IMG/VR virus record: IMGVR_UViG_3300046648_000378
Location: 1-38,309 of that record
Strand: one strand, 5' to 3'
Source of the DNA: a virus
DNA: 38,309 bases
The stretch's first letter is position 1. The number at the start of each line of letters is the position of its first letter. Made by a program: the position numbers and the translations under genes. Shown piece by piece: positions 3,097-38,309 of the stretch. Under the pieces are notes generated by a model. That model was not told the DNA's origin, did not search any database, and saw only the letters and a program-made list of their open reading frames with translations.

Positions 3097-3155
3097 TAAA
3101 CTAAGCTTGCGATTTGCGGTCAATACTGGATGACCGGAATTCGACGGGTGACGCG

Positions 3156-3842
3156 ATGTGTGGGCGAATTGTTCAAAGCTCAGGAATGGATGACTTCTTC
3201 AGCGAGCTGGCGCCCAGGTATCGCAAGCTTGGCGCCTATGACCATGAGCCCCTCGAACGATACAACGTCGCGCCGTCGACCCGAGTAGACATCATCCGGT
3301 CCGTTGACGACGGAATCCGTGTAGATAAGGTTAAATGGGGATGGGCGCCATTCTGGGCGAATGCCACACGACCGGACCCTATCAACGCCAGAGTAGAGAC
3401 TGTTGCGTCAGGGAAGTTCTTCAAGCAGCTCTGGCCGAAGGGCCGAGCCCTGACGCCAGCAAACGCCTGGTACGAGTGGGTGAAAGATCCGGATGACCCT
3501 AAGAAAAAGCAGCCATACCTCATCCGCCTGAAAGGGGGCGTGCCGATGTTCCTCGCGGCCTTGGCCCAGGTCCACACGGACATGGAAACGAACGAAGGCG
3601 ATGGCTTTGTGATCATCACTGACGCCAGTGACAAAGGGATGGTCGACATCCATGACCGGCGCCCGGTAGTGCTGGGGCCAGAGGATGCGAGGGAGTGGCT
3701 GGAGCTTGACCTATCTGCCGAACGAGCTCTCGAGCTCGCCCGGCATACCAGGCCGGTTGAGGATTTTGAGTGGTATCCCGTCGGGCGGGAAGTGGGGAAT
3801 GTACGCAATCAGGGCCCAGCGCTAATAGTACGTTCGCCCTGA
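3156..3842 (+). CDS. SOS response-associated peptidase (SRAP/YedK-HMCES family)
   Basis: SRAP proteins shield abasic sites in single-stranded DNA by forming a covalent thiazolidine link through Cys2. The start was set at 3156, not the earlier in-frame ATG, because the family needs Met-Cys-Gly-Arg at the very N-terminus so that Cys2 is exposed after Met removal. The 228-residue length fits the family. Other hallmarks are the NVAPS and GWAPFW segments, the NARVET motif, the WYEW motif carrying the conserved Glu, and IHDRRPV carrying the conserved His. The LexA-like palindrome upstream fits SOS control. It is probably prophage cargo, because it sits between the Pycsar genes and another SOS gene pair. 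Confidence 0.92.
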   Translation: MCGRIVQSSGMDDFFSELAPRYRKLGAYDHEPLERYNVAPSTRVDIIRSVDDGIRVDKVKWGWAPFWANATRPDPINARVETVASGKFFKQLWPKGRALTPANAWYEWVKDPDDPKKKQPYLIRLKGGVPMFLAALAQVHTDMETNEGDGFVIITDASDKGMVDIHDRRPVVLGPEDAREWLELDLSAERALELARHTRPVEDFEWYPVGREVGNVRNQGPALIVRSP

Positions 3843-3872: not shown

Positions 3873-4640
3873 TTATTGCGGAATCTTGTATCCATCTACT
3901 CCTTTTATTTTTTTTTGTAAAAACGTAAACCCGCCAGACTGTGCCTTGGGCCAACGACCCTTCATATAAGAATCAATAAGGATTTCGTTTTCCCCGCCGG
4001 AGAGTTTGGACGCGTAATAAACGCATTTACCAAGCAGCCTCGCCTGTTGTTTTGAGGGTAAGCCTATTAAGTTTACCATTGCAGGACTCAACGCCATTCC
4101 GATACCAATTACCAAAGCAGGAAGACCGTATCTACTCTTTAGCTCTTCGTTAACGATACTCAACGTTTCATTTAAACAACTTTTGGCTGCACGATTGGCA
4201 GCATAGATAGCGTCAGCCTCAGCGTCAAAGTCTGCAATTCTAAAGAAAGCAAGAACACCATCCCCTAGATACTCCGTAACATGTCCATCTTCAAAGCTCA
4301 ATGTTAGAGCTAGGGCTGGGAGTAGAGAGCTGGTTTCATAATATACGCGCTGCAACTCCGTGACCTTTGAAACCTTTGGATCAATACGCTGTAACAAATG
4401 AGAGCTTGAACCTCTCAAATCGATTACGACCGCGACAAAGTCCTCTACCTCTTCTGTTTCCGAAGTAACCAGAGGATGGCCAGGAATTAAAGATGGCATT
4501 GAATCAAAAACTTCCACAGACTTAGCTACCGCCTCTTCAAGCGCCAAGTCAGAACCTTTGCGGTCCCATCGCGCTTCCGCTTTATCAAGGCAGTCTGATA
4601 CAAGAGCATGGACCCTTCGAGCCTGGGATTTATTTAGCAT
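3873..4640 (-). CDS. pycC: Class III nucleotide cyclase, probable Pycsar uridylate/cytidylate cyclase (PycC)
   Basis: 255 residues. A helical N-terminal part (1-65) precedes a class III cyclase domain. VVIDLRGSS places metal-binding D74 and YLGDGVLAFF places D127. E123 lies where adenylyl cyclases have the adenine-contacting Lys. The usual VN-x-AARL helix reads VYYASKL (207-213), so the canonical Asn/Arg pair is replaced by Tyr208 and Lys212. The gene overlaps the upstream membrane protein by 11 nt, so the two are translationally coupled. In Pycsar systems phage infection triggers synthesis of cCMP or cUMP, which opens a membrane effector and kills the cell. The pairing, not the domain alone, supports Pycsar; which pyrimidine is used cannot be read from the sequence. 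The gene is visibly AT-richer than the phage late genes. Confidence 0.8.
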   Translation of the reverse strand: MLNKSQARRVHALVSDCLDKAEARWDRKGSDLALEEAVAKSVEVFDSMPSLIPGHPLVTSETEEVEDFVAVVIDLRGSSSHLLQRIDPKVSKVTELQRVYYETSSLLPALALTLSFEDGHVTEYLGDGVLAFFRIADFDAEADAIYAANRAAKSCLNETLSIVNEELKSRYGLPALVIGIGMALSPAMVNLIGLPSKQQARLLGKCVYYASKLSGGENEILIDSYMKGRWPKAQSGGFTFLQKKIKGVDGYKIPQ

Positions 4641-5199
4641 TGGGGATCAGGCCTCCATGGTAACTATAGATCATTAAGATCATTGCTATAGCGATCCACA
4701 GGAACGTACACTTTAAACTAAACATAAACCGGGAAATTTTCACATCGCGTATGTATGACACCTTCAGCAACTCAAAAATCATCTCAGATTCTAAATCATC
4801 GTCACTGCCAGGCATTGCATTTAAAACCTCCGCCACAGAAAAATTGGATTTTATAGGGAAATTAAAAAAAACATCTACCAAGCCTACACTAAATAGACCT
4901 GACCCATGATAAATCCCCGTGCCAGTATCACCAAGCACATGCGTAGCAGGGGGCGAAAGAGCCCCTACTGCATTGAACAAGCCGATAAATGATAGTAGCC
5001 ACAACAAACCAATTACCAGCACTGGAAACAGAACATAACAATTATTGCTATTAATTAATATGAACTGTGCAATCACTGGGACGGCTGTAAGCGGTGCAAA
5101 TATTACCACAAACAGAAATCCGAGCTTTACATCTGTAGCCCGGATCGTTGCCTGAATATCTGCTACGGCACTGTATAAGAAAAGCAACCTATTACTCAT
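4630..5199 (-). CDS. pycTM: Pycsar membrane effector (PycTM, DUF5706-like)
   Basis: 189 residues from the ATG at 5199, preferred over the ATG at 5244 because GGAA lies about 8 nt upstream. The N-terminus fits the Pycsar TM-effector pattern: an amphipathic helix ending RATDVKLGFL (counterpart of the family's ADxKxxxLL), then hydrophobic spans at about 30-52 and 62-82. A soluble linker follows, then an acidic segment (GSDDDLESE), a helix with SYIRDVKISRF, and a final span near 165-185. In the family the cyclic pyrimidine signal causes the TM effector to damage the inner membrane. It is the first gene of a two-gene operon whose stop overlaps the cyclase start. It is AT-rich, like its partner, suggesting joint acquisition. 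Confidence 0.78.
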   Translation of the reverse strand: MSNRLLFLYSAVADIQATIRATDVKLGFLFVVIFAPLTAVPVIAQFILINSNNCYVLFPVLVIGLLWLLSFIGLFNAVGALSPPATHVLGDTGTGIYHGSGLFSVGLVDVFFNFPIKSNFSVAEVLNAMPGSDDDLESEMIFELLKVSYIRDVKISRFMFSLKCTFLWIAIAMILMIYSYHGGLIPNAK

Positions 5200-5314: not shown

Positions 5315-6127
5315 CTATTCGTAAGGGATGCGGGCGAAAAGCCCCCCTAACGCCGCAGGCTCCCAGTTCATGATCACCAGTTCGCCGGAGATATCGGCCT
5401 TACCCTGTCTCTGATTAGTTGTGGTGTACCGAATATCTAGGGTCTCGAATTGAAAACCCTCAAACGCCTGGCGTATATCAGGATGGTCATTGATGCTGAC
5501 CATCACCTTGCCTTTGCAGCGCCGCATGAACTCAGCCATCCGCACGTAGTTGTCGAACGGAAAATCCACGCCGTACCCAGCGGTCTGCCAGTACGGCGGG
5601 TCCATGTAATGGAATGTGTGCGGCCGGTCGTAGCGCTCGGCGCATTCAAGCCAGGGCAGGTTTTCAACGTAGGTGCCGGACAGGCGCTGCCACGCCCCCG
5701 AGAGATTCTCTTCAATGCGTAGCAGGTTAATGGTCGGGGCCGTGGTCGCGGTGCCGAACGTCTGGCCTGAGACCTTGCCACCGAAAGCGTGCTGCTGCAG
5801 GTAGAAAAAGCGGGCGGCGCGCTGAATGTCTGTGAGGGTTTCCGGGCGGGTCATCTTTTGCCATTCGAAAATCTGGCGCGAGCTGAGTGCCCATTTGAAC
5901 TGACGAACGAATTCTTCAAGATGGTTTTGAACAACGCGATACAGCGTAACCAGGTCGCCGTTGATGTCGTTGAGGACTTCAACTGGCGCAGCCTGCGGAC
6001 GCATGAAATAGAGGGCGGCGCCGCCAGCGAACACTTCAACGTAGCATTCGTGGGGCGGGAAGAGAGGGATAAGACGGTCGGCCAGGCGGCGTTTGCCACC
6101 CATCCAGGGGATGATCGGACTGGTCAT
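5315..6127 (-). CDS. dam: DNA adenine N6-methyltransferase (D12/Dam class), orphan
   Basis: 270 residues. Start placed at 6127, where MTSPIIPWMGGKRR begins the D12-class PWxGGK cofactor motif; the open frame continues 43 codons upstream but that extension would cross the LexA box. Other hallmarks are the EVFAGGAAL SAM-binding loop, DINGDLVTLY, and the catalytic MDPPYW (DPPY). It transfers methyl from SAM to adenine N6; the target sequence cannot be read here. No restriction endonuclease accompanies it, so it may guard phage DNA from host restriction or alter gene expression. A LexA box 17 bp upstream of the start implies induction by DNA damage, together with phage excision. Confidence 0.9.
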   Translation of the reverse strand: MTSPIIPWMGGKRRLADRLIPLFPPHECYVEVFAGGAALYFMRPQAAPVEVLNDINGDLVTLYRVVQNHLEEFVRQFKWALSSRQIFEWQKMTRPETLTDIQRAARFFYLQQHAFGGKVSGQTFGTATTAPTINLLRIEENLSGAWQRLSGTYVENLPWLECAERYDRPHTFHYMDPPYWQTAGYGVDFPFDNYVRMAEFMRRCKGKVMVSINDHPDIRQAFEGFQFETLDIRYTTTNQRQGKADISGELVIMNWEPAALGGLFARIPYE

Positions 6128-6143
6128 TGAAAGCAAGCCTTTA

Positions 6144-6159
6144 CTGTATGGATAAACAG
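6144..6159 (-). promoter_or_regulatory. LexA box of the adenine methylase gene
   Basis: Read on the - strand this is CTGTTTATCCATACAG, with both CTGT and ACAG arms and an AT-rich centre. It lies 17 bp upstream of the methylase start codon, so LexA bound there would cover the promoter or start region. Confidence 0.82.
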
Positions 6160-6295
6160 GCACTAAACTCCCCGCGCTTTGTGCACGAAGCGGGAGCCTT
6201 GGCTGGACTTGCAGGGGTTGTCTGCGGTTCGGCGACCCGGCGGCATGTTGACGCATGCTGTCGGGCCGCTCCTTTTGATTCGTGTTTCTAGCCTT
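6160..6295 (-). other. Structured non-coding leader between DUF1353 and the methylase
   Basis: The strand read by the late genes can form a hairpin here: CCCG/CGGG outside and GCATG/CATGC inside (6236-6265). An ATG at 6256 with AGGAG upstream opens a frame that continues into the methylase. That N-terminal extension is arginine- and proline-rich and crosses the LexA box, so I treat it as leader. Confidence 0.35.
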
Positions 6296-32214: not shown

Positions 32215-32229
32215 AATACACTTTGTATT
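32215..32229. promoter_or_regulatory. Repressor operator OR-like 1
   Basis: AATACA-CTT-TGTATT, a perfect 15-bp inverted repeat 28 bp upstream of the cro start. Shared consensus of the operator set: AATAC(A/G)NNN(T/C)GTATT. Confidence 0.82.
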
Positions 32230-32247
32230 TTTTCCGTGCAAGCTCTC

Positions 32248-32262
32248 AATACAGTCTGTCGA
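32248..32262. promoter_or_regulatory. Repressor operator OR-like 2 (imperfect)
   Basis: AATACA-GTC-TGTCGA keeps the left half and the TGT of the right half. It lies 33 bp (centre to centre) from operator 1 and 26 bp from operator 3, so it is probably a weaker middle site. Confidence 0.55.
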
Positions 32263-32273
32263 TTGCCCATAAA

Positions 32274-32288
32274 AATACGCCCTGTATT
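32274..32288. promoter_or_regulatory. Repressor operator OR-like 3
   Basis: AATACG-CCC-TGTATT, ending 9 bp before the CI start codon. It would allow autoregulation of CI. Confidence 0.78.
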
Positions 32289-32297
32289 ATTTTGGGT

Positions 32298-32945
32298 ATG
32301 AGCGAATGGTATGAAATAGCTAAAAAAGTGATGGAAGAACAGGACATCAGCCAAGAGGAGATGGGCGTCCGCTTGGGCGTTACTCAAGGCGCGGTGGGGC
32401 ATTGGTTAAGAGGTGAGCGCGAGCCCAAGCTTGAGACAATCAACCGCCTTTTCGGTGTGCTCGGGTTGCCTGGCTTGGGCCTGATATCAACCACCACTTC
32501 CACCGTGGAACCTTCAAGCGCTGACGTTTCGACTGACCGGCTCTATCGTTATCCGGTCATAAGCTGGGTCACCGCTGGCGGATGGGCTGAAGCTGTGGAA
32601 CCTTACGAGCCAGGCGCAGCCGACACCTACGAACTCACCGACTATAAAGCGAAAGGTCCGGCTTTCTGGCTTCAGGTAGTAGGCGATTCAATGACGGCAC
32701 CGGTAGGTGCGGGCCAGAGCGTGCCGGAAGGGATGCTTATTCTTGTCGACACGGGGATTGAACCGTCGCCCGGAAAACTCGTTATCGCCAAGCTCCCAGA
32801 AAGCAATAAGGCTACATTCAAAAAGCTGGTCGAAGACTCCGGCATGTACTTCCTTAAGCCTCTAAATCCAGGCTATCCGATAACGCCAATCACCGAGCAC
32901 TGTCGACTGATCGGAGTTGTGGTCTCTGCCAAGACGGCGCTATAG
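32298..32945 (+). CDS. CI-like repressor with S24 (LexA-type) autocleavage domain
   Basis: 215 residues from MSEWYEIAKK; the longer frame would run through the operators. HTH at about 17-39 (ISQEEMGVRLGVTQGAVGHW). The C-terminal S24 domain has an Ala93-Gly94 cleavage site (SWVTAGGW), catalytic Ser131 (VVGDSMTAP) and Lys175 (KATFKKL). Activated RecA should promote self-cleavage and induce the prophage. The ribosome site is poor, perhaps keeping the level low. A strong terminator follows. Confidence 0.93.
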   Translation: MSEWYEIAKKVMEEQDISQEEMGVRLGVTQGAVGHWLRGEREPKLETINRLFGVLGLPGLGLISTTTSTVEPSSADVSTDRLYRYPVISWVTAGGWAEAVEPYEPGAADTYELTDYKAKGPAFWLQVVGDSMTAPVGAGQSVPEGMLILVDTGIEPSPGKLVIAKLPESNKATFKKLVEDSGMYFLKPLNPGYPITPITEHCRLIGVVVSAKTAL

Positions 32946-37406: not shown

Positions 37407-38309
37407 TTAATCAAGCCTTGCCGCCATTTCGGCGGCAGTGGCGTTGTAGTAAATCATCAGAGACTTTAGATCCTTATGTCCAGTGATCCGGGCTAGATCA
37501 AGTACATCGACCTTTCGGGCGAGCCGGGTAGTTGCTTCATGCCTTGTGTCATGAAAATGCAAATCGGCAATGTGCAATTCATCCCTGATCTTCCGAAACA
37601 TGGCATCAGCCGAACCTGACTTCAGTTTGAACACTGTACCCTCACCTCCGTGGTCACCGACCATAAGCGTCAATAACTCAGTCGCGCGCTTAGTCAGCGG
37701 CACATTGCGTGCCTCACCATTCTTGGTTTTTGGCAGACGCACATACCGGTCTTTAAGCCGTACAGTGTTGAAGGTCAGCCCCAGAATCTCGCTCTGCCGC
37801 ATCGCAGTCTCAAGGGCCAACAGAAAGGCATAGGCAAGCTCCTGCTGCAAGGTGACCGGCCCTAGCCCTTCAATGTATCCAAACCGCTTTAAGAGAGCTT
37901 TCTCCTCCTCCGGCGATATACGGCGGTCACGCGGTGGATTGTTAGCCGGTCGTTTGATCTCTCGGACTGGATTAATCGTGCAACACTTCCACTCACGCCT
38001 AGCAATTTCGAAGACAGAGGAAAGCAAGGTCATCTCGCGACGCACCGTTGGACTGGCTACTTGCTTCAAGCGCAAATCACGCCATTCGGCAATCTGATCT
38101 GCCGTGATATCTTCGATCCAGTCCCCCACGAACGTCAGATCAGCATCCATCCTATCGAGGCGAAGCTCCTCCCAACGCTGGCCATCCTTAGTAGTAGATA
38201 CGTCTCGCTTGTATCGCTTCAGAGCCTCTGATAGCGTCATTCTGTTGCTGGCTTTAGCCTTCCCACTGCCAGCCAGTATTTCCGCTTCACGATGCGTCGC
38301 CCAGGCCAT
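37407..38309 (-). CDS. int: Tyrosine-recombinase integrase (5' end outside the window)
   Basis: 300 residues visible, beginning at the very last base; integrases of this kind normally carry about 30 more N-terminal residues, so the start is probably outside. The core-binding domain starts near LSEALKRYKRDVST. The catalytic domain shows the first Arg in TAMRQSEILGL, the HDTRHEATTRLA box (His-x-x-Arg), ITGHKDLKSLMIYYN with the second His and the Tyr nucleophile. It integrates and, with Xis, excises the prophage. The att core would lie to the right, beyond the window. Confidence 0.93.
   Translation of the reverse strand: MAWATHREAEILAGSGKAKASNRMTLSEALKRYKRDVSTTKDGQRWEELRLDRMDADLTFVGDWIEDITADQIAEWRDLRLKQVASPTVRREMTLLSSVFEIARREWKCCTINPVREIKRPANNPPRDRRISPEEEKALLKRFGYIEGLGPVTLQQELAYAFLLALETAMRQSEILGLTFNTVRLKDRYVRLPKTKNGEARNVPLTKRATELLTLMVGDHGGEGTVFKLKSGSADAMFRKIRDELHIADLHFHDTRHEATTRLARKVDVLDLARITGHKDLKSLMIYYNATAAEMAARLD

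Follow-up and report, generated by a model that had tools for sequence, protein, structure and literature searches.

A two-gene operon on a temperate phage, encoding a class III nucleotide cyclase and a PycTM-like membrane protein, is best explained as a Pycsar-type defence system carried by the phage, a reading to which we give a probability of about 85%. Pycsar systems join a pyrimidine cyclase to a PycTM or PycTIR effector and act through abortive infection (PMC11224242). Two results settle the matter in favour of this reading. Firstly, in 30 of 32 related loci, which are not all independent, the cyclase adjoins a Pycsar effector, this being PycTM-like in 25 and a CNBD-TIR (PycTIR-like) protein in five. 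Secondly, the cyclases form a single clade (support 100/99), apart from the ordinary adenylyl and guanylyl cyclases. The original prediction of a Pycsar operon had allowed that the membrane protein might match no Pycsar effector, or that the cyclase might cluster with ordinary adenylyl cyclases; neither proved to be so, and the prediction is supported.

The operon, its genomic slot and its membrane effector

The window, meaning the whole 38,309-base stretch of viral DNA that was analysed, encodes an integrase, an S24-type repressor with a divergent Cro-like gene, a primase, a terminase, a portal and a major head protein (Table 1). It is a temperate Pseudomonas-type phage, the CI-like repressor marking the temperate lifestyle, and it shares 76% identity with Pseudomonas phage PG1 in the packaging and head genes. 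Its first and last bases fall on gene starts, which suggests that the window is a provirus cut out of a host contig. The PG1 genes run from tail through lysis to one small ORF, SRAP and integrase, with SRAP at the end of the lysis region, whereas in the window the small ORF by SRAP is replaced by a DNA adenine methylase and the two operon genes. Therefore the operon occupies a variable slot, with the SRAP gene as its downstream boundary and the methylase as the phage neighbour upstream on the same strand, in keeping with the accessory prophage position proposed for it. The outer accessory end (positions 1-1764, + strand) encodes a 587-residue zinc-ribbon membrane protein, a region of which is weakly similar to ClpP-type phage proteases.

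Within the slot, the two ORFs overlap by 11 bp with the effector gene first, and GC content is 44% over positions 4001-5000 against about 60% in the phage body; the overlap, gene order and AT-richness had all been described correctly. The effector starts at the ATG at 5199, which is preferred to a possible 204-residue reading from 5244 because relatives begin at the equivalent position. No second cyclase adjoins the operon in the window. Consensus scans for promoters and terminators performed at chance level, and identified no lysogen-active promoter, which counts against the Pycsar reading.

Table 1. Features of the window, and related loci with a second cyclase gene (locus coordinates)
Feature	Position	Strand	Basis
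SRAP (SOS response associated peptidase) gene	3114..3842	+	Pfam PF02586 4.7e-50
Class III nucleotide cyclase, PycC-like, 255 aa	3873..4640	-	PADLOC, AF2/Foldseek, tree
VTEYLGDG, residues 121-128, with second metal-binding Asp D127	4257..4280	-	All eight positions invariant in 22 aligned members
First metal-binding Asp D74, in VVIDLRGSS	4419..4421	-	Invariant in 22 aligned members
PycTM-like effector, 189 aa, three hydrophobic spans	4630..5199	-	PADLOC PycTM PDLC02364, hydropathy
Conserved effector motif IRATDVKLGFLFVVI, residues 19-33	5101..5145	-	Two alignments of effector members
DNA adenine methylase (D12 class)	5315..6256	-	Pfam PF02086 9.2e-23, PHROG 56 2.3e-97
CI-like repressor (HTH + peptidase S24)	32223..32945	+	PF00717 6.2e-22, PHROG 4 3.5e-42
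Tyrosine integrase	37407..38309	-	PF00589 9.8e-25, PHROG 1 2.8e-49
Two-cyclase loci	L008:3622-5786, L010:6296-8780, L013:6531-8792, L024:8001-10352, L026:4815-6822

The membrane protein matches the PADLOC PycTM model PDLC02364 over residues 7-179 (E 4.2e-12), as do all 18 aligned effector members. This model is selective, as only 8 of 400 genomes of the genus Pseudomonas match it, and seven of those eight matches adjoin an independently found cyclase. The suggested DUF5706-like label did not hold: the effector has no Pfam match at E<=10, hence none to a DUF5706-type model, and searches of NCBIfam and PHROG returned no family. Such a Pfam label is a means of detecting Pycsar, not a property that defines it. 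The proposed multi-span topology and N-terminal signature both stand, with three hydrophobic spans and the sequence TDVKLGFL at residues 22-29, inside the motif D-x-Q-x-T-I-R-x-x-D-V-K-x-G-F-L-x-V. In this region Q16 and D23 are invariant, and I19 and K25 nearly so; conservation recurs at a second place, a C-terminal helix of the form K-(V/L)-x-x-I-R-(N/D)-x-K. The AF2 model (pLDDT 88) is mostly helical, with long helices at residues 3-49, 54-78 and 133-181, and a Foldseek search with it returned nothing meaningful; no relative is solved, and there is no PycTM structure to compare it with. By analogy with PycTM proteins in general, the effector would form pores in the membrane.

The cyclase and its lineage

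The AF2 model of the cyclase (pLDDT 87.3) adopts the class III fold, and carries at residues 4-32 an N-terminal helix, which may correspond to the one described as a PycC hallmark (PMC11224242). Its best Foldseek matches are class III cyclases, with Cya2 at the top and CyaC, BcPycC (clade B, cUMP, PDB 7R65) and EaPycC (clade E, cCMP, PDB 8JSF) also among them, the two PycC structures each matching at E about 1e-9. The fold is shared with BcPycC and EaPycC, but identity to them is just 16-17%, and the likeness does not extend to their selecting residues.

Both metal aspartates are present, and D74 falls where BcPycC and AnPycC have their metal-binding Asp. Base selection has been assigned to Y50/D94/R97 in BcPycC, F60/K104/F109 in AnPycC and F100/R142/Q144 in EaPycC (PMC11224242). 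The lineage of the window cyclase has none of these residues proven for clades B, D and E, which counts against the Pycsar reading, although each clade has its own selecting residues and PycC as such is not defined by them. Hence the product is not readable from the cyclase sequence. Alignment on the metal Asp assigns V72 to the first of these positions, while E123 and L125 precede the GD, and G128 and L130 follow it. E123, Y124 and L125 lie in or near the predicted base-recognition pocket, which is unlike the pockets of BcPycC, AnPycC and EaPycC; these three residues, G128 and L130 are invariant across the 22 aligned members, in which position 201 is Lys or Arg. Where ordinary adenylyl cyclases have an Arg, nearly all family members have the Lys that is found in BcPycC, AnPycC and the PycTM-linked Pseudomonas cyclases. 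Where classical class III enzymes have their catalytic Asn, nearly all members carry Tyr, Phe or Trp, which is a further point against the Pycsar reading, and the catalytic mechanism of the lineage may thus differ in detail.

These features allow a direct comparison with AnPycsar (AnPycC and AnPycTM; PMC11224242), likewise a two-gene operon of a class III cyclase and a PycTM-family effector, the cyclase of which also keeps both metal aspartates and the Lys in place of Arg. The window cyclase differs in belonging to a separate lineage, with V72/L125/L130 in place of the clade D residues F60/K104/F109, and with its invariant VTEYLGDG.

Of the profile searches of both proteins that were originally advised, the one for the effector supports the Pycsar reading, but the one for the cyclase is a weaker test than supposed, as the PycC models also score ordinary cyclases highly. 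The window cyclase matches the PADLOC PycC model PDLC02369 at E 3e-10, which was rejected as proof of membership, as ordinary long cyclases in a control search matched PDLC02367 at up to 8e-24; the match alone is therefore no evidence of membership. All PADLOC PycC models are weak for the lineage, its best member reaching 9.3e-16 against 1e-65 to 1e-114 for clear single-model matches elsewhere. That the family scores no better than ordinary cyclases counts against the Pycsar reading. The window cyclase also matched nothing in Pfam or NCBIfam.

The tree instead separates the lineage from ordinary enzymes. A scan of genome contigs with the window cyclase alone found nothing, and hence the query was built instead from aligned relatives on plasmids and an ICE. 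The tree contained 22 family members, 20 cyclases expected to be ordinary, Cya2, CyaB, BcPycC, AnPycC and PycTM-linked Pseudomonas cyclases, with the published clades A-E taken as defined in PMC11224242. It speaks less to the deeper relation of the family to other PycCs, as it includes some very long branches and hardly any sequences from clades A and C; members of PDLC02369 are missing because a search of 229 genomes of the class with that model gave no strong match. One candidate PycC (L060) fell with the ordinary cyclases and was read as one of them. Among the candidate relatives, the one viral match to the single sequence (L001) was a false one to a structural-type ORF, and two weak matches to long unrelated ORFs (L030, L031) were left out.

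Relatives were found on plasmids of Enterobacter, Klebsiella, Acinetobacter and Desulfosporosinus, among conjugative-element genes in Salmonella houtenae, and in genomes of several phyla and viral contigs. The family is found on at least four kinds of mobile element, and its carriers appear to include tailed prophages, a phage-plasmid, a filamentous prophage, an ICE and plasmids. In Pseudomonas guguanensis (L015:7415-15901, the same as viral contig L032), a Zot-like gene (PHROG 1041, 1.4e-140) stands approximately 6 kb away from the cyclase-PycTM pair, and a 12.3-kb viral contig matches this region; together these suggest a filamentous prophage carrying Pycsar. The 110-kb Enterobacter plasmid pCP102 (L004, L088; NZ_CP104015.1) carries the pair and looks like a phage-plasmid, as it encodes portal, capsid, tape measure and tail genes; a pair closely similar to that of pCP102 is present on a 110-kb viral contig (L033). 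The only two loci with neither type of effector are from Xenorhabdus (L027:7734-8552 and L029:7833-8684), where family cyclases with a match that covers the first 220 residues only lie directly behind conserved housekeeping genes, and these are possibly decayed remnants.

Effector exchange and the likely signal

The five PycTIR-like loci (L018, L020, L023, L038 and L039, the last with a cyclase broken by a stop) link the lineage to PycTIR Pycsar systems such as PsPycsar and NpPycTIR (PMC11224242), although the window itself has a membrane effector instead. The CNBD-TIR proteins that were scanned match the PADLOC PycTIR model at 1.6e-75 to 1.7e-94, and the Pfam families CAP12-PCTIR_TIR and cNMP_binding. 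Their partner cyclases are nested within the PycTM-paired family, grouping with a PycTM-paired viral contig (L034) at 99/97, and so both effector types would read the output of one cyclase lineage. This apparent exchange of PycTM and PycTIR within one cyclase clade fits, and predicts, a shared signal read by both. The L034 contig also has tail and tape-measure genes, and in Pseudomonas izuensis a PycTM-paired copy (L014) and a PycTIR-paired copy (L020) lie approximately 34 kb apart on one contig.

A clue to the likely identity of that signal comes from the three PycTIR partners examined. The residues with which PsPycTIR contacts cUMP (PMC11224242), namely G86, E87, A89, R97, S98 (as S/T), R138 and N143, are all kept in them. 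As the partners of its sister cyclases conserve the cUMP pocket, cUMP is the favoured signal of the window operon, with rather better than even confidence. The R12-E114 salt bridge, said to drive filament formation by PsPycTIR, is not conserved in these three proteins (L018:7096-8004, L020:7060-8004 and L023:6892-8004).

Five loci carry a second cyclase gene beyond or beside the membrane gene (Table 1). The second cyclases that were scanned fit different PycC models, namely PDLC02368 in L010 (1e-94) and PDLC02367 in L026 (1e-65), the latter enzyme being close to BcPycC. It is conceivable, and we propose it only tentatively, that the window cyclase founds a PycC lineage outside clades A-E, with an undescribed pyrimidine pocket formed by VTEYLGDG and Lys/Arg 201. 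Such a lineage would supply both types of effector and, at some loci, act alongside a second cyclase of different descent in a two-signal or two-subunit Pycsar system.

Mode of action, alternatives and implications

If the operon acts as other Pycsar systems do, infection of the lysogen by another phage would switch on the cyclase, which would make a cyclic mononucleotide, most likely cUMP. The nucleotide would activate the PycTM protein and the inner membrane would be breached, such that the infected cell would stop growing or die before the invader multiplied. The death of this cell would protect sister lysogens, and hence the resident prophage, making it plausible that the operon guards the phage that carries it.

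The same architecture might instead carry a purine signal, with the cyclase making cGMP (or cAMP) and the membrane protein sensing it. This is kept alive by E123, which aligns with a Glu of the guanylyl cyclase Cya2, also the top Foldseek match, and which counts against the Pycsar reading; the loss of all proven pyrimidine-selecting residues points the same way. Yet a purine signal is unlikely, as N143 and R138, which recognise uracil, are retained in the PycTIRs paired with the sister cyclases, whereas a cGMP-specific CNBD carries Glu at that site (PMC11224242), and every family member has Lys or Arg as residue 201 while Cya2 has no basic residue there. Two-gene operons of a synthase and a transmembrane effector also occur as Panoptes (OptS/OptE) and Cap15-type CBASS (PMC12657218), which differ in having their own synthase folds (mCpol or CD-NTase) and cyclic dinucleotide signals. 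Panoptes shows that such operons can follow an inverted logic (PMC12657218), and phages destroy cCMP and cUMP with Apyc1 (PMC9117128). A constantly made nucleotide might similarly hold the effector off until a phage destroying cyclic mononucleotides releases it. The chances of this are very small, given that co-expression of the AnPycsar cyclase and effector is toxic, with the toxicity relieved by mutation of the active site (PMC11224242), and that the PycTIR partners of the lineage belong to a family activated, rather than repressed, by cUMP.

A role outside defence is a little less remote than inverted logic, but still improbable. The operon is placed near one edge of the phage, with genes for lysis and DNA modification as its neighbours, and the pair is also found on small plasmids, as might be expected of an addiction or superinfection-exclusion module, or of a lysogeny regulator, that signals by the cyclase; the exchange of PycTM for PycTIR, and the presence of the family on plasmids, an ICE and chromosomes, instead suggest a portable immune module. 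It is scarcely credible that an ordinary adenylyl cyclase lies by chance beside an unrelated membrane protein. The low PADLOC PycC score, exceeded by ordinary cyclases, and the lack of a Pfam match would permit it, but the conservation of the pair in 25 loci from several phyla already contradicts it, and in the tree the cyclase falls in a clade apart from 22 ordinary cyclases. A Pycsar-type defence operon remains the best explanation.

Pycsar, and the carriage of defence systems by prophages, are already known. What is new, as far as the literature and models compared show, is that a cyclase lineage has a dissimilar pocket, has spread to mobile elements of different kinds, and at some loci is accompanied by a second cyclase. 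Surveys may under-count this lineage, as the PADLOC cyclase models match it weakly and Pfam (for the window proteins, NCBIfam too) does not match it at all. As it lacks the known selecting residues, the rules governing the choice between UTP and CTP can be re-tested on it. The operon itself offers a concrete case, open to direct testing, in which a temperate phage provides immunity through cyclic mononucleotides.
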